Source: a candidate division SR1 bacterium
GTDB taxonomy: Bacteria; Patescibacteriota; Gracilibacteria; Absconditabacterales; Absconditicoccaceae
Direction: 5' to 3'
Assembly (NCBI GenBank): GCA_026397475.1
Contig: JAPLUT010000004.1
Span: 1 to 64,000, forward strand
DNA: 64,000 nt
Both the position numbers and the translations under genes were made by a program. Below, one piece after another: positions 1 through 54,924 of the stretch. A model generated the notes under the pieces. The model was not told the origin of the DNA. It was given only the letters and a program-made list of their open reading frames with translations, and did no database searches. The first letter of the stretch is position 1; every line of letters begins with the position of its first letter.

Positions 1-3000
1 GCGCCAGTATGGAACAATGATAATTTTATCGATGATAGTTTCCGAGTATCTGGGCCTACAGCATCAGAGATCAAGAATGCTTTGTATGGAGATGGGACAT
101 GAAATGCGGATACCACAGCATATACAAAATATCGAACAGGAGCGCTTTGTAATCCAAATATTATGACAGTGACGTATGTCAATTCAGGCATAAACACACT
201 TGCAGCCGTTCCGGCAGCAAATACCATATATGTGTTAAATGGATGAACATATGTTTCTACTACCAACGTTGCTCCAGGAGGAAACTGTATCGCAATCATT
301 TGAAGAAAAAGATCTACGCTTACTCATTCTGCTGTACAAGCAAACTGAGCCGTATACTTAGCGAGTAGACAAAATGTTGTTCTCGATAATTTGGAAATAG
401 ACGCTAAATCAAATGGCACATGATGAACGCATTACTCTACATTGTATGCGATTCAGATTGCAACATTATGAAATAATACTTTAAATAACATAGCAACATA
501 CAATACGAGATCAGCGGGGGTCTATCTTAATATTGCAAGAAATAGCGTTCTCAACAATGTCCAGTCATATAATAATAAGTTATACTGAGTATATATAGCT
601 GCAGGTTCAGATAAAACAATGATAAATAATGTTCAAACATATAGTAATATGTATGGAATATATGACGTGTCGAGTAATATTTTATTTAATAATATTCAGT
701 CCTATAATAATTTGATTGTTTGAATATATATGTCGCTTATAACGGGAAGTAGTATAAACAACGCTCAGACATATAATAATATTAATAATGGAATCTGGTT
801 ATCAAACACGACATGAATTGTTATCAATAACTCTTCTTTATATGGTAATGCTATTAACTGATTGCTGTTCGATGGAGGAACCAATCAAACAAAAATAAAT
901 AATGTTTCCTTGTTCAACAACAGCACTTGATATGCTTCTACGAACGTTGCAACGCAGACGTGAAATTATTATTATGGGACTATAAAAATATTTGCAAACG
1001 GAGACAATAATACTTTTGGTACAAGAATTTTTACTTGATGGTCAGAATATACGGGAATTTGATGGCTTACGTGATCGGTATCAAGAACGGATGTTTTATG
1101 ATGCGATAAGGTCACTAATTCAGATTGATTTTTATATCACCCAACGGATACATCATGTAGTTTTAGGTGAACAGATGGAAGTATGACTATAGATGATATG
1201 AATCAGTCATATTTTTATGGCTCTTGAGTAGCAAATCAAATACAGCCTGTCTATTACACATGATGAACACTAAATTTTTCAAATTTGCCCTATGATCCTA
1301 CTCAAGATATCGGGCAAAAAAATAGTGTTTCATCTCTTTGATATCTCAAATTCAAAGATAATAAATTTTTAACAGATATCACTTGAGTAGCTGTATATAT
1401 GTGATATGATAAAATATGAGCGACGTATCTACTGACATGAGATTTTATGGAATCGCCAATGACGGGAGCCACAACTTGATACAGTCAAAAGATAAATATA
1501 AGTTTAACTTCTTCCACAGGAGAAAAGAATATATATATAACCCTTACCTCATGAGAAAATACAAGAAACTTTGCTAGTAGTATTTTATATATATGACCCA
1601 TATCTAATGCTACCATCCAGAAGTATTTTGGTTATGCCAGTGCATATACTCAGAATCGAGAATACAACTCATGCGATCCAAGAAATATAACTGTAACAAC
1701 AATCAATTCTTGAATAAATACAATACCTGTGGCGCCTGTAGTAAACACTATTTATGTCCTCAATCCCGGGGTTTACACAAGTACGGGTACTAAACCACTC
1801 TTAGAATGTGATGTTATCGCAGGTAGTGGAGATGTATTTCATGGTACTGATATATATAGAGCAAACACTACATTTACAACCACAGACTCGAATAATATAA
1901 TAGATAATATAAAATTTGATTGAAAGAAAACTAGTACATGATTTATGCATGGATGAAATTCTGCAGCGGTATACTCTACATTGGCATCGAATATTACTAT
2001 TAGTAATGTTGATATATACAATCACGTTCTCGGTTTGTCTCGAGCATATTCCAAAAACATTTTGATAGATGATTCTAGTATTTATAATATGTATTCATGA
2101 ACAGTTACTAGTTATTGAATCCGATTCAACGTGGGAGCAAACATAGCTTTGAATAATATAAGGGCATATAATATGTATACCTCTAATATTATTAATTCAT
2201 CTTGAGCTTCAAATATAAGTATAAATAATACTCTCTCTTTCAGTTCTAGGCAACAATCAATAAATATAGCCAGTCCTGCAAACTTTATTATAAACAACTC
2301 TTTGATCTATAATAATGGCTGGACTTGAGTAATAGCCACGACGTCTACCGGTATTATAATAAATAATGTATCTTCTTTTAATAATTCTTGAGCATGATTC
2401 GCTCTTGAAAATAGGAACATTTACTATTGAATCAATAGTTCTTTTGCAAACGTAACGAACGCGCTTCAGTGATTTACGTGATGATTGGAATTATGATACC
2501 TGTGATGGACCACAGGATCATTCGTCTCCACGTGAATAATGAGCTGTGATCAGGTAGTAAATCCTATAGATGCTAGTGGTTCATATTTACAAACCTGAGC
2601 TTTATGTAATTACAAAACATATAATTCTCTCTTTTCGTGATATGTGAATAATGAATATGGATATGTCTATGGAGCAAATATTCCTAATCAGGTTCAGCCC
2701 GTATATTATAAAAACCAAGAAGAGATGCTGAGTGATATATCTTACGATACATGACTTTATATAGCAGAATCTCCTTTGTCTGTAAAGATAGTTATATCAA
2801 GTCATTTGAGTTGATCTTTTGCTACTTCTTCTTTGATAACGCTTAGTGGAACCATAAAGCAGGGATCTTCTTCACTATCTGGTCAGATCATGATTATATC
2901 ATGAGACACAATATCTTGAACAACCGCAGTATCAGATAGCTGAGGTGTTCGGTCTGTGTCAGTTTCTTTGTTGGGACTTGTTAATGCTTTCTCTGTACAA

Positions 3001-3666
3001 ACAACAGATCTTGATGATTGATATATAATAATAAAAAACATTACTATCAATGTTAGTAACGCACTTCCTCTAGTTTCTACGTGATATATATGATTGGGAG
3101 CGACAGGATCAAATGGATGACGTCTATATTATAAATGAACAGTAAATATAAGCGCAAATGTGAGTGATGGAGGAGCATGATTGTCGGGCGATAGCTGTCA
3201 GTATACGACATGAGCATGACGAGCATCAGCGGTATATTCATGAGTCGCTTGATACTGTGAGGCAACATGAATCGTAGGTGGAGACTTAAATATAATCTTT
3301 AGAGTGGCAAATACTTATGGCTCGCTCTGAACCTGAGCAACGGGTACATATCTGTACGATAATACTTGACCATCCATCCCTAGCTTATTATCTCCGAGTA
3401 GTGGGCAGGTGCTATCAACAGGAACTGTAAACTTACTACGAAGTTGATCAGTAGATACTGGGATAGGATTGAGTGGATATATCTGGCAAATAAGCACATG
3501 AAATGCTTTTGCTGTAATTATGAATTCATGATCGATATTTACAAGTGGGGTAACGGTAGATTGACTGACAGACAATAGATATTACTGGAGAGTTTATGCA
3601 TACGATAGATTTGAGAATACATGAGCATGGAGTACAGTGACCTTCAGTCGCGACATGATATATTAG
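1..3666 (+). CDS. Giant beta-helix surface protein (5' end outside window)
   Basis: Reading frame 1 stays open from the window edge to a TAG at 3664 if TGA is Gly; dozens of TGA codons are used. About residues 60-330 and 580-840 hold short repeats of the form NNxQxYNNxxYGIY, typical of right-handed parallel beta-helices (pectate-lyase or NosD-like folds). After these come Ig-like stretches of the pattern GTYLYDNTGPS / LSPSSGQ. The N-terminal block (NALYGDGT, NTIYVLNGGTY) is shared with the minus-strand protein at 37.2-41.7 kb, so the two are paralogs. The signal peptide must lie upstream of the window. It is probably a secreted adhesin or envelope protein; this is inferred from fold and composition only. 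The frame breaks at ~3649 and the protein continues in frame 2. Confidence 0.8.
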
Positions 3667-48064: not shown

Positions 48065-48448
48065 ATGGATAGAAAACGGATTTTTAATGTCGCTGAGCTT
48101 GCTCACGAAGCCGAATTGCAAGCTATGAGGGAATTCATAGCAAAACACAAGTTCTGCGTTATAGAGCTTGATGAAACAACAATGGCCAATCCTATTCTAA
48201 GGGCAATGGCTATGAGAAGTTTTGATCACTACAAACATGTCGCTGTGATCGTACCTCCTCAAGGAGGATGCGCCGCATTCAATGCGGTGATCGATGGCTC
48301 TTCGAGCCATATAGACAAGAGGATGCTTCCTCACAAGGAAATCCCGAATGTTTTTCATCCCAAAGTGCATAGTTTTTTTTCTTCTCTTAAGGAAGAAGGT
48401 CTTGATTTTCAAATCAGGGGCATGCACACAATCGTATACAAAATATAG
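48065..48448 (+). CDS. TGA-free hypothetical protein
   Basis: 127 residues, stop TAG. It is a soluble alpha/beta protein (FIAKHKFCVIELDETT, HYKHVAVIVPPQGGCAAFNA, GLDFQIRGMHTIVYKI) rich in His. All five Gly use GGN. It has its own promoter and terminator, like the other TGA-free units, and is placed between murD and an isochorismatase-family gene. No family recognised. Confidence 0.6.
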   Translation: MDRKRIFNVAELAHEAELQAMREFIAKHKFCVIELDETTMANPILRAMAMRSFDHYKHVAVIVPPQGGCAAFNAVIDGSSSHIDKRMLPHKEIPNVFHPKVHSFFSSLKEEGLDFQIRGMHTIVYKI

Positions 48449-48478
48449 TCCGGTATTTCCGAACTATTTTTTTTTGTT
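48447..48478 (+). terminator. Terminator after 48065-48448
   Basis: ATAGTcCGG tattt CCGaACTAT followed by nine T; the stem starts inside the stop codon. Confidence 0.8.
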
Positions 48479-48541
48479 TTGAAAACAAATACTAAATCAG
48501 TATGCTCTATTTTACACAAATTTATTTGATTGTTCTAAAAT

Positions 48542-49048
48542 ATGACAGAAACTGCATTAGTGCTTATCGACTATCAAACAGAGTGGACCAATCCAGAAAG
48601 CGAAAATTATGTAGGCGACGTACAAGAACTTATTGGTAAGGTAAACTACCTTGTTGATCATGCGAGAACAAGAGAATATAAAATAATATATATTAAACAT
48701 AGAGAGCCTGATTGATCAGAATATTTCTGATCAGACACAAAATTTATCCCCGAATTGAAGGTGGACGATACGGATACGATTATCACCAAAAATAAAATCA
48801 GCCCTTTTTATACTACGTCATTAGAAGCAGAACTGGTAGGAATCAAGCAGGTTATTGTTTGTTGAATACTAACGAACCTATGCGTAAGAAGTTTCATCCA
48901 AGATGCTTATGATAGAGACTTTAAAATCACCGTCATCAAAGATTGTTGTATAGCCCACACAGAGGAGATCCAGGAATTTACATTTTATGATCTTGCTCAG
49001 ACGAGAGAAGAGATAGAATTTATAAATTTAAAAGAGTTCGTAGAATAA
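48542..49048 (+). CDS. Isochorismatase-family (cysteine) hydrolase
   Basis: 168 residues, stop TAA. The catalytic triad pattern is visible: Asp in ALVLIDYQTEW (residue ~10), Lys in TKNKISPFYTTSLE, and Cys in VIVCGILTNLCVRSFIQDAY (LCV Cys), followed by VIKDCCIAH. The family includes nicotinamidases and other amidohydrolases; nicotinamidase is plausible but not shown by a specific residue. Three Gly are TGA, so it is a native gene between two TGA-free units. Confidence 0.85.
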
Positions 49049-49070
49049 GAGCATATACCACGCAATGCGC

Positions 49071-49098
49071 TTGATATTTGGCAGGAAATCTGTATGCT
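49071..49098 (+). promoter_or_regulatory. Promoter for 49136-49621
   Basis: TTGATA, 16 nt, TATGCT; leader AATAAATAAAAAAACC. Confidence 0.45.
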
Positions 49099-49135
49099 TT
49101 TGACCTAAATAAATAAAAAAACCAAAAAAAAATTT

Positions 49136-49621
49136 ATGAAAAAAGTAATAATTATTATCGCGCTTGCGCTTGGCTGCTACCTAAAAATAACTGCGCAGTC
49201 GTTATCTCCAGAACTAGAGGAGATTACTTTCCAACTGGAACATTTTCAAATTCAACTTCAATCTTCGAAGCTAGATGACCAGCAAACTAAGCAGATTATC
49301 GGGCAGATAAGAGACTTGGCTAAGAGAAAAGATAGCCTAATGGCTCTTTCTCTTAAAGAAAATGAAGTAATCATACTGACAAGTATGGTAGAAAAAGGCG
49401 GTTACTTGATCTGCTCACAGGCGACCATTATGTACAATGAAAAGCTTCCTTATGTGGAAGCAATCATCTATAGTGATGCCTTCGGCCCTAACAAAAAGAT
49501 TAGCCGAAAGGTTAAGTACAAAAAAGGCCAAGTAATTAAATTTAAAAAGGGAGAGAATTATATTGCATTACAATCTCCAACAGGCAAAACATTAAATCAA
49601 ATTAAAGAGTTTATGCCCTGA
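49136..49621 (+). CDS. TGA-terminated secreted protein in foreign island
   Basis: 161 residues, ending in TGA at 49619. A signal peptide MKKVIIIIALALGCYLKITA is followed by QSLSPELEE, with the x-Ala-Gln cleavage region common in Bacteroidota. Residues 25-70 are a Gln/Leu-rich helix, followed by a small beta-rich domain (GGYLICSQATIMY to YIALQSPTGKT). The eight Gly all use GGN. A perfect hairpin terminator begins 26 bp after the TGA; in code 25 the protein would instead gain 18 residues read through the terminator to a TAA at 49673. That makes TGA the intended stop and suggests import from a standard-code organism. Family unknown. Confidence 0.65.
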   Translation: MKKVIIIIALALGCYLKITAQSLSPELEEITFQLEHFQIQLQSSKLDDQQTKQIIGQIRDLAKRKDSLMALSLKENEVIILTSMVEKGGYLICSQATIMYNEKLPYVEAIIYSDAFGPNKKISRKVKYKKGQVIKFKKGENYIALQSPTGKTLNQIKEFMP

Positions 49622-49647
49622 TTCATCCCTAAAATCAACAAATTTTT

Positions 49648-49673
49648 TCTCCAGTTCCCTGGAGATTTTTTTT
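49648..49673 (+). terminator. Terminator after 49136-49621
   Basis: Stem TCTCCAG / CTGGAGA with loop TTCC, then T8. Confidence 0.85.
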
Positions 49674-49675
49674 AA

Positions 49676-50019
49676 ATGAGACAATAGAGTCTTTCAGGGA
49701 CGATCCCTCCAAAAATTTATTTATTTACAAACGCTCCGCTAGGCTCACTTTTGGCATTACCCCAAAAGTAAGCAAAAACTCTAGCCAGATGCGAAACTCA
49801 GAATGGAATCTTTATATATACATGACCTACCAACTCGACTCCGTCCCACCTATGGTGGGGCCCACTTCGTCTCGTTCTATTTTACTTCTTTATCTCCATT
49901 TGGATTACTATCTCGTGGCGTGCATCTGGCCACAGCAATATAGCTATTTTGGTTTCTTATATATAAAATATTAGGAGATAAATTTATTCCTAGTAATTTT
50001 CTCCTGAAATTTTCTATAC
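49676..50019. other. Non-coding stretch between the two island genes
   Basis: About 340 bp without a convincing gene on either strand. It has several small inverted repeats (ACTTTTGGcattacCCCAAAAGT near 49748-49770; CCCACCtatGGTGGGG near 49846-49861) and looks less AT-rich than its surroundings. The style resembles intergenic DNA with hairpin elements; no known element identified. Confidence 0.4.
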
Positions 50020-50046
50020 AAAAAAAGCCTCTCAAATACGAGAGGC
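50020..50046 (-). terminator. Terminator of the T9SS-type protein gene
   Basis: Stem GCCTCT / AGAGGC with loop CAAATACG and A6 on plus (U6 on minus). The first base after the stem is 2 nt from the gene's TGA stop. Confidence 0.88.
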
Positions 50047-50048
50047 CA

Positions 50049-51986
50049 TCATTTTACAATGATTTTTATTATTGTTTGGTTTCCATCCTGAGCAAGTATG
50101 CTCAAAAAATAAATCCCAGAACTCAGCTCTGGATGAAGGAGATTATGACCGATACTTGTCGTTTGGAAAACCGTACGACCTACAACATCAGTTATAATGA
50201 TTCCAATTTCCTCACTGCTTTCTACGTTTAGTTCATCCGAGAATGGATTTGGCCAAACGCTATAGCTTGCATTAGATGCACACTCAACAACGATTAGTGG
50301 GAACAGCTCTTCGTGCCCATTGTAATCTGTCTGTTTCAGGCGGTAATACTTTATCCCATGACTTTCTTCAAGCGACAGCTCATAATTATTGGTCCAGCTA
50401 CTGTTTCCAGCGCCTTGGACTTTTTTTACAAGTTGCCAATGTATCGCGTCAGTACTTTTCTCAATACTGAAGTAATCATTGTTGGTCTCTGTAGCAGTAC
50501 TCCACTTAAGTACTATCGTACCTGCTTCGCAGCTTCCTGTAAAGGAAAGGAGCGAGATGGGTAGAGGATCAGTAGGAAAGTAAAGTTTTACTATCCAGAA
50601 GTCAAAAGATGTTCCGCCAGAAGTCCCGTGATGCCCTGATACTTGACCACCACTAGATGCAGAATGTCCAGCAATGATATATCCACCATCACTAGTTTCC
50701 TGACCTGATAAAGCCTGATCGCTCGAAGTTCCTCCTAATGACTTTTCCCATTGAATAATTCCTGCATTATCAAGCTTTATAACCCAATAGTCAGTACCAC
50801 CAGAAGGAATAGGATGCTTTCTATTGCCTACAATGCTATCAATAGATGCAGAATATCCGACAAGAATATAACCACCATCCGATGTTTGTTTGATAGAACG
50901 TGCGTTATCGCTTCCACTTCCTCCTAATGATTTCTCCCATTGAATAGTATCTAAAGACGGATTAAGTTTTACAACCCAATAGTCAGTACCACCAGAGGGA
51001 ATAGGGTGTTTTCTGTCACTAAGGATGCTATCTGAATTTGAACTTCCAGCAACGATATAGCCACCATCCGATGTTTGTTGGATAAAATATGCATTATCAC
51101 TTCCGGTTCCTCCGATAGATCTTTGATGTTGAATGGTGTCTAGAGATGGATTAAGTTTTACAATCCAGTAGTCTTCTAGAGATGTCCCATGATGCGCCGT
51201 GATGTTGATATCAGTCGACGATGACCATCCAGCAACGATATAACCACCATCCGATGTTTGTTGAATAGATGTTGCTTTATCGCTACTCGTTCCACCCATA
51301 GATCTTTGATACTGAATTATTCCAAGACTACTAAGTTTTACAATCCAATAATCTTCTGATCCTATATGTCCAGAAACATTCACATCGTTAGAAAGTGAAT
51401 ATCCAGCAACGATATAACCACCATCCGATGTTTGTTGAATAGCTGTTGCTCTTTCGTTGTTCGTTCCTCCTAATGACTTTTCCCATAATATGGTTCCTGA
51501 AGGATCTAATTTTACTATCCAATAGTCTTCTGCTCCTGGACGAGGAGTTGAAACGTTGAAATTGTTAGAATTTGACCATCCAGCAACGATATACCCACCA
51601 TCTGATGTTTGTTGAACAGCATTGGCGACTTCGTTATTAGACCCACCATAGGATTTTTGCCAAAGAGTGTCGCCTAATGAAGTAAGTCTCACAATCCAGT
51701 AGTCGCTACCTCCATGACGCATAGTTACATAACCATCCGCGGTATTTGAACTGTTTCCTACAACGATATAGCCACCATCCGATGTTTGTTGAATACAAAA
51801 TGCGTTTTCTAACGCTGTACTCCCTAAGGATTTTTGCCATTCGATACTAGGTGCTTGTGCATACAGCATTACCGTTCCTAAAAACAGCAATGTTACAATA
51901 AGTTTCTTCCAAGGCGAAGAAGTAGCCGCTTCTGAGTTTAATTTCCACGAGCTAGGACTTCTTTTAAGATTTAACATATTTTTCAT
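50049..51986 (-). CDS. T9SS-sorted repeat protein, standard-code gene
   Basis: 645 residues, stop TGA. A signal peptide near residues 20-48 (KKLIVTLLFLGTVMLYAQ) precedes about nine ~50-residue repeats of the pattern TSDGGYIVAGxS ... DYWIVKLxxxG ... WEKSLGGS, a family common in Bacteroidota. A fibronectin-like part follows (LLSFTGSCEAGTIVLKWSTA), then a type A T9SS sorting domain (VWPNPFSDELNVES to LSSGIYFLSILAQDGN). All 71 Gly use GGN. If TGA were Gly, translation would run through the terminator to a TAA at 49971, adding 26 residues. No T9SS machinery is seen here, and this transport system is not expected in Absconditabacteria. An upstream ATG at 52028 overlaps the promoter. Confidence 0.88.
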   Translation of the reverse strand: MKNMLNLKRSPSSWKLNSEAATSSPWKKLIVTLLFLGTVMLYAQAPSIEWQKSLGSTALENAFCIQQTSDGGYIVVGNSSNTADGYVTMRHGGSDYWIVRLTSLGDTLWQKSYGGSNNEVANAVQQTSDGGYIVAGWSNSNNFNVSTPRPGAEDYWIVKLDPSGTILWEKSLGGTNNERATAIQQTSDGGYIVAGYSLSNDVNVSGHIGSEDYWIVKLSSLGIIQYQRSMGGTSSDKATSIQQTSDGGYIVAGWSSSTDINITAHHGTSLEDYWIVKLNPSLDTIQHQRSIGGTGSDNAYFIQQTSDGGYIVAGSSNSDSILSDRKHPIPSGGTDYWVVKLNPSLDTIQWEKSLGGSGSDNARSIKQTSDGGYILVGYSASIDSIVGNRKHPIPSGGTDYWVIKLDNAGIIQWEKSLGGTSSDQALSGQETSDGGYIIAGHSASSGGQVSGHHGTSGGTSFDFWIVKLYFPTDPLPISLLSFTGSCEAGTIVLKWSTATETNNDYFSIEKSTDAIHWQLVKKVQGAGNSSWTNNYELSLEESHGIKYYRLKQTDYNGHEELFPLIVVECASNASYSVWPNPFSDELNVESSEEIGIIITDVVGRTVFQTTSIGHNLLHPELSSGIYFLSILAQDGNQTIIKIIVK

Positions 51987-52009
51987 ATTTGTTTTTATTT
52001 GTACCGATA

Positions 52010-52037
52010 TATATAAGGAAATTGACATAATTTACAA
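52010..52037 (-). promoter_or_regulatory. Possible promoter of the T9SS-type gene
   Basis: On minus: TTGTAA, 16 nt, TATATA, then the leader ACAAATAAAAACAAAT before the ATG at 51986. Confidence 0.4.
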
Positions 52038-52092
52038 GTAATGTTTGATATATTGGGCTGAAAAACAGCTTTTTGGCTTTACCTGTAAAAAT

Positions 52093-52120
52093 AAAAAAAT
52101 ATTGCCGTAAAGGGCAATAT
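52093..52120 (-). terminator. Terminator of nrdR
   Basis: Stem ATATTGCC / GGGCAATAT with loop GTAAA; A7 on plus gives U7 on minus. Confidence 0.85.
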
Positions 52121-52143
52121 CTTTGGTAGTAGGAGAACGAAGT

Positions 52144-52578
52144 CTAATCGATAAACTTTTTAAAGTCCTTGAGATTATCAAAAGATTTATATACGGATGC
52201 AAATCTTACATAGACTACAGGATCCATTTTTTTTAATGCTCTGAGGACATCATCGCCAATTTCTTTGGAGGTGATTTCGTTTTTATCTATAGACCATTCT
52301 GCTTCGAGATTGTTGATAAGATTTTCTATTTGCTCTCTATCGATTTCTCTTTTTGCAAAAGCTAAGAGAATCGCTTTTTTAAGCTTTTGTCTGTCATACA
52401 TTTCTTTGCCCCCATCTTTTTTGATAACGACGAGCTCAGTAAAGCCTTTTCTTTCGAAAGTCGTAAATCTATGTTGGCAGTATTCACATTCTCTTCTTCT
52501 TCTGATACTTTGACCATCTTCAATGACTCTTGAGTCGATGACTTTAGTTTCCATACTCTGACATTTTGGGCACTTCAT
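52144..52578 (-). CDS. nrdR: Transcriptional repressor NrdR
   Basis: 144 residues, stop TAG. Its N-terminal zinc ribbon has two Cys pairs (MKCPKC and CEYCQHRFTT) with SRVIEDGQSIRRRRECEYC between. The ATP-cone follows (VIKKDGGKEMYDRQKLKKAI, later VYVRFASVYKSFDNLKDF). It represses ribonucleotide reductase genes in response to ATP/dATP by binding NrdR boxes. Full-length and typical. No TGA codon, but it has only five Gly. Confidence 0.95.
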   Translation of the reverse strand: MKCPKCQSMETKVIDSRVIEDGQSIRRRRECEYCQHRFTTFERKGFTELVVIKKDGGKEMYDRQKLKKAILLAFAKREIDREQIENLINNLEAEWSIDKNEITSKEIGDDVLRALKKMDPVVYVRFASVYKSFDNLKDFKKFID

Positions 52579-52599
52579 GACTTTATATTAGATAAATAA

Positions 52600-52711
52600 A
52601 TGAATGATTGATGATGAATGATGAATAATTTTGGTATTTTTTTTATAAATAAATAGTTTCCATTACTCGTCCCGAGGGAGTATTAATCATTAATTTTTAA
52701 TTATTAATTAT
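52600..52711. repeat. Interspersed inverted repeat, copy d
   Basis: TGATGAATGATGAATAATTTTGG on the left and TATTAATCATTAATTTTTAA on the right, in the nrdR upstream gap. Confidence 0.45.
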
Positions 52712-52713
52712 TT

Positions 52714-54924
52714 TTATTGTGGCATGAGGAACCTCTTATTATAATACGTAATATTTTTTATAAATCATTTGAATCGTAAGATATCTTCACTGATAATTTT
52801 TTTCCTAATTTCTTCAAGGCCTTTCTTGCCAGAAAATGCTATTCGATTATCGTAGCCTATTTTGAGATACTCCTTATTATCATCTATTTCTATCCAGTGC
52901 TTAATAATCTCATTGAAGTCTGCTTGGAGATCGTTGATGATTTTTATTATTTTTTTATGGTAGTATTCGTCGATATTTAATATGTCTTGAACGTATATAT
53001 TCAGTAAAAGATCAGGTGAAAATTTAGTATTTTTTATTTGTGCTTGATCTCTTAGATAGGTAATATAAATGAGAAATCATGAAAAGGTCTCTCTTATGGA
53101 AGAAAAGATTCCCAAGATTACCATATCAGAATACTCTTTTTTGAGGTTGATTTTATTTTCCACAATTGCTCTAAAAAATTTTTTACTGATCCGAAAATCT
53201 AGGTTATATATATTTTCTTTGATATGATAGATATCTGACTCGCTAAGTCCCTTATTCAATATTTTAATAAAATTTTTCTGTTCCAAATTTTCAGCAATGT
53301 CTTGATATACTGAGAGTATAAATTGAGCATCTGAAAGTTTTACCATCTCAGAAATTTCTTGTCCTATGAGTCATTTAAATATCTCTATTATTTTTTTATT
53401 TTTGATATAGAGTCTTATATCCTTCGGATTAATATCCTGTAAAATCGTAGCAATGCAGGTCTCATCAAAAGATTTGAGAAGGCTAATATTGGAGTAAATG
53501 TTCTTGATATCCGTTTTGTGAGGCAAGAAAAATTTTTGTTTTCCTGCTCTTACATTTTCTGAGGTATGTTTGTAGAAGAAAACATTTTTCCCGTATTGAT
53601 AGAGGAGTCCTCCATAATACAATAAGGTATTGTTTTTTTCTTTTTTTTCTCCATCTGAAGCACTTATTCCTTGGATAATGGGTTTTCTAAATAGCCTTAA
53701 AAAGAAGTTATCGCCCCTAGAAACTCGTGATCATCAAATGAGGGTAATATAAAAATTTAATATTTTTTCCATCATCTTAGATTCTTTTTTTATCCTCTCC
53801 GGTATTTTGAAACTTTCAATATTTTCTACATCTTCTCCTATCGAGGACATAAGATCATTCAGATCTTCTTTGATTTCTCCGTGAGCATCTTGATCTCTAA
53901 AAACCGTAATAATATATTTTTGTACGCCTCAGAAAAAATTCTTTTTGAAATTTCTATAGTCGGTAATGTAGAGTAAGAAGTCTTCTAGCTGAGTATCATC
54001 TTTACGGAAGCTTTTGATGAATCCATCAAGTATTTTTTTATCAAAAATTTTGGAAATTACCGTGTCGGTAATCAAAAACATATCAGAATCGATAAAAAGG
54101 TATCTCAATAGAATGTCTGCAGGAAGCACAGATTGCATGATTTTAGTTTCTACGCTAGAAAAGGTTTTTTTACCCGTATATTCTTTGTGGTTTGCGACAA
54201 ATTCTGCATAAATACTTTTTGCATCACCTTTAAGCTCATCATAAAACAATCGAGAATAGAAGTCTTTATCAGTTACATCTTCATGCACGAAGATATCGTT
54301 AAAATTTTTATATACAGCAAAAAGAAGGAAGAATAATTCTATATGATTGAGTAATTCTTTTTTTAGTGTTTTGATAATCACGGGATCGGCTTTTTTTCAC
54401 GTTTGTTGAAAAACAAATTCATAAAAAGAGAACATGGTTTCGACAAACCAGTTATAGTTAGTTTCCCTGTCCGTGTACGGGAATACTTTAATCCTTGAAA
54501 GAAAAACAAAACTTAACAAAAAAATAGTATAGAGAAAATTGAGATAATATTCTGGCGGATATGCCCTAAAAATATCCTTTACATAAAGCGCTGCTACCAA
54601 AGATAAATTGTTAGCGACATTTGCTGGAGAGAAAAATCTATAGCCATTAAGGTTTGCTGTAGAGCAGTAGCCATAATAGGTATCCATATCTTTTGCTTTT
54701 ATATTATTGTTTTCTCCAAATCAAATTTTAAACTCAAAAGGATCGATCGCAATATCGAAAATATTCAGTTTATAATTTTCTACAATTTTTCTATTGATGA
54801 CAGAAAAAAACTCTTTTGTTGAAATAAACGAAATAAACATGCTTGCCGGATTAATGGTCTGTGAGATTATTTCGTCAGGGAAAAGTGACAGAAGAACTCT
54901 TTTGAAGAGTTGCATATTGGGCAT
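52714..54924 (-). CDS. 736-residue hypothetical protein
   Basis: One code-25 frame, stop TAA. It has no signal peptide. The sequence is Lys/Phe/Ile-rich and strongly helical. One clear hydrophobic segment (EYYLNFLYTIFLLSFVFLSR, about residues 125-145) may be a membrane helix. Few Gly, some TGA-encoded. The ATG at 54924 is 16 bp from the FKBP lipoprotein gene stop, so the two are probably co-transcribed (FKBP upstream). I do not recognise the family. Confidence 0.65.

Follow-up and report, generated by a model that had tools for sequence, protein, structure and literature searches.

TGA-free genes with Bacteroidota-type start, export and sorting signals in a bacterium that reads UGA as glycine

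Introduction

The nearest described counterparts of the genes considered here are the code 11-compatible phages of Gracilibacteria and Absconditabacteria, which are proposed to be shared by hosts using genetic code 11 and hosts using code 25 (Liu et al., 2023; PMC10746230), and a gracilibacterium surface protein with PTD repeats that resembles one in the possible host Colwellia and whose repeat region is without TGA (PMC6851277). Here, we describe an island of two genes, encoding secreted proteins of 161 and 645 aa, in the first 64,000 nucleotides (the window; bases 1-64000 of our contig C8) of contig JAPLUT010000004.1 (assembly GCA_026397475.1) from a candidate division SR1 bacterium of the family Absconditicoccaceae, whose genome (1.17 Mb, 8 contigs, 99.6% complete; our genome G000) reads UGA as glycine (Gly). 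Both genes belong, as recent additions, to a lineage-wide class of TGA-free genes. The phages, which are the nearest idea, are phage genomes, whereas this class consists of chromosomal, syntenic secreted-protein genes with Bacteroidota translation, export and sorting signals; in the PTD-repeat case, the likeness to a gammaproteobacterium is confined to one repeat, alternative coding was confirmed around that repeat, and no tail of the type described below was reported.

Genes carried by one cell and built for expression in the cell that it attacks are known from Agrobacterium transferred DNA (T-DNA), which the present genes resemble in principle; the likeness is one of general idea, and the promoters here look like those of the parasite. 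The source organism, as a code-25 bacterium of the candidate phyla radiation (CPR), is presumably a parasite or episymbiont. Like type A cargo of the Bacteroidota type IX secretion system (T9SS; TIGR04183, PF18962), the class proteins combine an x-Gln Sec signal peptide, an Ig/PKD/repeat body and a C-terminal domain (the tail) with PNP and a terminal Lys; unlike that cargo, they have as their source a bacterium that reads UGA as Gly, and no sprA was found in it. Unlike ordinary code-25 genes, the two window genes have no UGA-Gly and end at UGA rather than at UAA or UAG. A search of the open-access literature returned nothing joining Gracilibacteria with type IX secretion, and the co-mentions of Patescibacteria and T9SS were unrelated by title.

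Results

Across the open reading frames (ORFs) of the contig, TGA makes up 484 of 1,662 Gly codons (29%). The two island genes have 8 GGN codons and no TGA (49136-49621, plus strand) and 71 GGN codons and no TGA (50049-51986, minus strand), so that at the contig's rate their joint count of 0/79, asserted by an earlier note made from the letters of the window and confirmed by our codon count, would arise by chance with a probability of about 2e-12. With 8 Gly, the 161-aa gene by itself shows no significant TGA absence; what places it in the class is the signal peptide (ITAQ↓S), together with an A-rich leader and a TGA stop. T9SS tails were found in 46 of the 288 genomes of the taxonomic class and in 31 of the 49 listed family members, at 1-6 per genome, and are rare in a broader Patescibacteria sample. 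In genomes where TGA is common, 10 or more Gly codons are present in 55 tail genes, which together carry TGA at 0 of 2,809 Gly, in a search that would overlook some tails with TGA at a conserved Gly; flanking genes there carry it at roughly 14-72%. The gene class was defined by selection on zero TGA, and the subsequent tests set it against controls. Its proteins are secreted, mostly surface proteins of Ig/PKD/repeat type, and often T9SS-tailed. In the window's own genome, contig C2 carries another T9SS-tailed gene, which closes a tandem of three secreted genes (259, 490 and 699 aa) directly upstream of rpsL-rpsG; this operon has TGA at 0/176 Gly, and four large native secreted genes 5' of it have TGA at 29-41% of Gly. 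TGA avoidance as a trait of secreted proteins is ruled out, since native secreted proteins use TGA. A TGA-free, Bacteroidota-dialect gene class very probably exists in this UGA=Gly lineage.

Several observations stand beside this class. The four native secreted proteins (G000:C2:198952-209076; L087 353-10477) have DUF11 and beta-helix domains, and this run and the TGA-free operon are possibly one surface locus with native and host-dialect parts. Directly 3' of a T9SS-tailed gene, G119:C4:145679-148708 (L125) encodes a 1010-aa membrane protein with TGA at 0/57 Gly, which may be a class member without being T9SS cargo. An asparaginyl-tRNA-synthetase-like gene in a TGA-using genome (G176:C20:13987-15279; L157) has TGA at 0/31 Gly; it is non-secreted and perhaps a recent transfer. 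In other classes of the phylum, T9SS tails were seen in G770 (four places) and G602:C12, and they may hint at Bacteroidota hosts in those classes as well.

At rpsL-rpsG, seven genomes of the genus share a syntenic tail gene, and three further genera have tail genes at the same site; a second tail locus is common to G001, G002, G004 and G005, and a third to G018, G040 and G206. Members of the syntenic families range from 69% down to about 30% protein identity. When aligned Gly pairs with differing codons are counted in native orthologues of the genus, whose genomes are drafts, TGA is involved in 71-92%; the same test gives 0/1056, 0/224 and 0/37 for the three tail families (the pairs are non-independent, but the zero is absolute) and 0/267 for the 259/490-aa operon partners. 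TGA absence, start type and tail persist in the syntenic families despite turnover of the other Gly codons. Because most Gly codons of these families have turned over without ever gaining TGA, recency cannot explain the zero, and simple recency of transfer is ruled out, by this turnover and by synteny, as an account of the whole class. In the Locus 2 family tree, the recoded members form one clade against Bacteroidota (Shimodaira-Hasegawa-like approximate likelihood ratio test, SH-aLRT, 97); in the Locus 1 tree, the genus clade has a support of 91 and a single clade of all recoded members is not rejected by the approximately unbiased test (p-AU 0.58). One tree leaves G003 and the G119/G233/G191 group not firmly joined to the genus clade. 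The Bacteroidota genomes searched (295 and 395) yielded partial homologues only, mostly at 30-40% identity over long stretches, and the closest relatives of the syntenic families are in the same genus.

Class leaders are 62% A and 5% G, with no Shine-Dalgarno and with A at 76% for positions -14..-11 (82% in the syntenic members), 78% for -6 (86%) and 67% for -3 (68%). The corresponding values are 32%, 37% and 45% in native secreted genes and 35%, 46% and 38% in conserved native genes with sure starts; syntenic and native secreted leaders differ at p = 7e-17 (-14..-11) and p = 6e-5 (-6). This A-rich pattern matches the one shown by ribosome profiling in Flavobacterium johnsoniae (PMC6847099). 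A few T9SS-like tails also occur in TGA-using genes (G050, G151:C2, G151:C15, G176:C4, G004:C5:70492), which have native-like T-rich leaders and mostly no Bacteroidota-type signal peptide; the tail alone is therefore not tied to TGA absence, and leader type and code go together. In three other apparent exceptions (G014:C24, G014:C2, G147:C5:386439), the TGA codons all precede the true start. As a separate observation, native starts such as those of rpsL in L087, L089, L125, L136 and L150 have no Shine-Dalgarno and a T-rich leader with recurring TTTA/ATTT around -20..-12, and the native initiation signal of the lineage looks unusual.

Stop codons in 55 class genes are TAA in 41, TAG in 9 and TGA in 5, and the respective counts at AT-rich Bacteroidota loci are 155, 43 and 28 (TGA 28/226). 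Each of the five TGA stops lies 1-11 codons past the matched domain, with a hairpin and a T run after it. Release factor 2 (RF2) was not found in the window's own genome, in which one RF1 with a PAT motif and a 141-aa ArfB-like RF-1-domain protein were found; the single-contig relative G040 has a tRNA whose anticodon is UCA. The shift of class codon usage away from native correlates with Bacteroidota usage (r = 0.70; random native subsets 0.02 +/- 0.24), and this direct comparison overturned the idea that codon usage had merely ameliorated to native.

An [AGS]Q motif follows the hydrophobic core in 39 of 51 TGA-free secreted ORFs versus 21 of 69 TGA-using ones, and Gln following the site cut by signal peptidase I is a rule specific to Bacteroidetes (PMC5837995). 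In the T9SS tails, the PNP, G and terminal Lys motifs are retained across divergence. Five genomes (G000, G005, G040, G050 and G119) gave no match to SprA_N (PF14349), from the T9SS translocon, in a search that took in no other T9SS parts and in which a Bacteroidota control scored E = 1e-157; a T9SS of the parasite's own was rejected on this result.

Upstream of class genes, TTGAC-N16-TAnnnT is enriched on the sense strand (15 vs 1 at spacing 16); the consensus is TTGACW-N16-TATAAT, and spacing 16 is also prominent in native upstream regions. The Bacteroidota promoter (TTG / TAnnTTTG at -33 / -7) showed no sense-strand enrichment 5' of class genes, so Bacteroidota promoters were not found for them, TTGACW-N16-TAnnnT being present instead.

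Within the window, the island and its elements are as follows (coordinates, strand, feature):

49049..52143, no strand: inserted stretch between the isochorismatase gene (48542-49048, plus) and nrdR (52144-52578, minus), from comparison of the gap with relatives
49071..49098, plus: promoter-like site TTGATA-N16-TATGCT 5' of the 161-aa gene, with spacing 16 as in the lineage's native promoters (a consensus match, the whole scan not being above shuffles)
49102..49135, plus: A-rich leader (translation initiation region) of predicted Bacteroidota type, from sequence and class statistics
49136..49621, plus: 161-aa secreted protein, from translation; TGA at 0/8 Gly; signal peptide MKKVIIIIALALGCYLKITAQ followed by S; TGA stop at 49619-49621
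49648..49665, plus: terminator hairpin TCTCCAGttccCTGGAGA then T8, 3' of the TGA stop, from sequence
50026..50047, minus: terminator hairpin GGCCTCTCgtatTTGAGAGGCT then a T run, directly 3' of the tail gene's TGA stop, from sequence
50049..51986, minus: protein of 645 aa with TSDGGYIVAG repeats and a T9SS type A sorting domain, from translation and profiles; TGA at 0/71 Gly; TGA stop at 50049-50051
50052..50258, minus: T9SS type A C-terminal sorting domain (PF18962, TIGR04183), residues 577-645, from profile matches
51855..51986, minus: N-terminal signal sequence ending in PWKKLIVTLLFLGTVMLYAQ, of the Bacteroidetes Q-rule type with Gln at or beside the cleavage site, from translation (PMC5837995)
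51987..52004, minus: A-rich leader ACAAATAAAAACAAAT 5' of the start codon, from sequence
52010..52037, minus: weak promoter-like site TTGTAA-N16-TATATA, tentative, from sequence

What the earlier note had observed in this stretch held. Both genes stop at TGA, and a terminator-like hairpin lies beside each stop (49648-49665, plus; 50047-50026, minus). The sorting domain scores 39.1 bits for PF18962 and 37 bits for TIGR04183, both over the curated cut-offs (27 and 23 bits), in keeping with its description there as a typical type A T9SS domain. The x-Ala-Gln signal-peptide ends were likewise recovered (ITAQ↓S and LYAQ↓A), with Gln at or next to cleavage sites whose exact places are unproven; the Sec signal peptide of the T9SS-tailed 645-aa protein, assigned by inspection and a simple hydrophobicity rule, ends in WKKLIVTLLFLGTVMLYAQ. 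Flanking genes use TGA as Gly, as stated (murD 12, isochorismatase 3), and so does a 736-aa gene (8). In nrdR, the nearest neighbour, none of the 5 Gly codons is TGA, and the nrdR orthologues in four relatives have one TGA each; with so few Gly, nrdR is uninformative on the code here. Read in code 25, the two island proteins gain 18 and 26 residues, and the predicted read-through peptides are GFIPKINKFFLQFPGDFF and GWPLVFER. The lengths of these C-terminal extensions agree with the note, but the extensions are expected only if parasite ribosomes translate the genes, and starts, stops and codon preference speak against that. The 161-aa protein has no Pfam family over cut-off and no relatives among phages, and an Rfam search over 48400-53400 gave no matches. 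Between the two genes, 49680-50025 is about 350 bp without an ORF that contains a GC-rich inverted repeat, CCCACCTATGGTGGG, near 49846-49860; it could be the remnant of a larger cassette.

Discussion

Tentatively, and at somewhat less than an even chance, we favour the reading that the parasite maintains the class for expression in a Bacteroidota host, to which it supplies the transcript or the gene. Somewhat less probable is the specific route in which transcription would start from the parasite's promoters, Bacteroidota ribosomes would do the translating and the host T9SS would display the products on the host surface. Host expression is favoured because code, stop, start, codon choice, signal peptide and tail each fit a standard-code Bacteroidota cell, and because several of these features are useless or wrong in a recoded cell without RF2 and T9SS. 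Host translation is what we infer, and the class itself is well supported. In this scheme, mRNAs would be produced from the parasite's own promoters, protein synthesis would take place on the standard-code ribosomes of the attached Bacteroidota cell, export would use host Sec and signal peptidase I, and the host T9SS would place the protein on the host surface, where it may mark, hold or shield an occupied host. The window island would be one of these cassettes, a new arrival between the isochorismatase gene and nrdR.

If host expression is correct, one bacterium programs the ribosomes and secretion system of another, as a bacterial counterpart of host-expressed parasite genes, and the genetic code, through its reassigned codons, acts as a built-in marker of the cell where a gene is translated. 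The class suggests that these uncultured bacteria have Bacteroidota hosts, in line with a moderate co-occurrence of Absconditabacteria and Bacteroidetes in one metagenome set (PMC8406219), and it offers a sequence test of host identity for other recoded or CPR lineages. Even without host translation, it is a chromosomal class, kept without the reassigned codon and carrying foreign start, export and sorting signals, that known amelioration of transferred genes does not explain.

Several points weigh against host expression. The class promoters look native-type, from their consensus and spacing, and this is the chief point against expression in the host from delivered DNA; the parasite itself then probably makes the transcripts, which would require a route for mRNA. 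To our knowledge, no route for such mRNA transfer is described, and this lack is the chief point against a delivered transcript. Most class genes could be correctly translated in the parasite too, because 50 of 55 stop at TAA or TAG, and the five TGA-stop genes, all singletons, may for that reason be recent arrivals. The tail survey covers the loci around T9SS-tail matches (more than 80 were retrieved), signal peptides and starts were assigned by simple rules, and ORFs were called mechanically.

Among other explanations, recent horizontal transfer, in which a Bacteroidota donor passed on the two window genes so recently that they have neither gained TGA codons nor lost their TGA stops, is unlikely. 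The earlier note had proposed such a transfer, and its recency and Bacteroidota ancestry stood: the isochorismatase gene and nrdR are convergent, adjacent and about 70-107 bp apart in G004, G008 and G003, and here 3.1 kb with exactly two genes lies between them; the 161-aa protein has no relative in the genus's other eight genomes; there are Bacteroidota homologues; the stops are TGA; and the GC content of the island is about 40%, against about 34% in its surroundings. These data support the island being a real, recent insert. In G002 and G007, other small genes occupy the same gap, and no target-site duplication is visible at the insertion, where the repeats are just A-rich chance repeats of up to 11 bp. 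Recency does not suffice for the standard-code character, since long-resident, syntenic and strongly diverged class members are also TGA-free: transfer covers the window island at most, and the syntenic members, at 30-69% identity and with most Gly codons changed, have 0 TGA. The native-type promoter-like site of the 161-aa gene also speaks against it.

Rather unlikely, too, is a bilingual or mobile gene pool, moving repeatedly between Bacteroidota and the recoded lineage, of which both would retain only code-neutral versions, as has been suggested for phages (PMC10746230). Such a pool would account for the absence of TGA as Gly, the mainly TAA and TAG stops and the Bacteroidota-like codon choice, and it has the phage precedent. 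It fits poorly with conserved positions beside rpsL and at two other loci, with own-lineage clades, with syntenic families whose closest relatives are in the same genus, and with native-type promoters.

Improbable as well is translation in the parasite, with some internal cause for avoiding UGA, such as expression in a life stage in which the UGA-reading glycine tRNA is scarce; A-rich leaders would then give strong initiation, and the tail would be a generic surface module. Native-type promoters agree with this, as do the 50 of 55 genes whose stops work in the parasite. It leaves unexplained the x-Gln signal peptides, the T9SS tails conserved without SprA, the TGA stops at Bacteroidota frequency and the Bacteroidota codon shift. 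TGA avoidance through high expression was rejected, since rpsL (TGA at 3/11 Gly) and rpsG (3/10 Gly), both expected to be highly expressed, use TGA.

Misjoined assembly, the other origin raised in the earlier note, or Bacteroidota contamination of the bin is very improbable, and is ruled out for most class members by TGA-rich flanks in long contigs, because genes of this kind lie between TGA-using genes in the long contigs of dozens of other, independent genomes, including single-contig G040, and some of them at conserved sites. Some short contigs in other bins (G085:C16, G060:C17, G213:C252, G020:C62 and G124:C153, among others) have T9SS genes and ORFs that are all TGA-free; the first three look contaminant, and all are probably Bacteroidota contamination of those bins.

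Additional observations

Elsewhere in the window, 48065-48448 contains a 127-aa ORF with no Pfam match, TGA at 0/5 Gly and a G+C content at third codon positions (GC3) above that of its neighbours. A 1194-aa ORF at 82-3666 has TGA at 73/134 Gly (54%), far over the genome mean, and the TGA share of Gly ranges widely (14-64%) across native genes.

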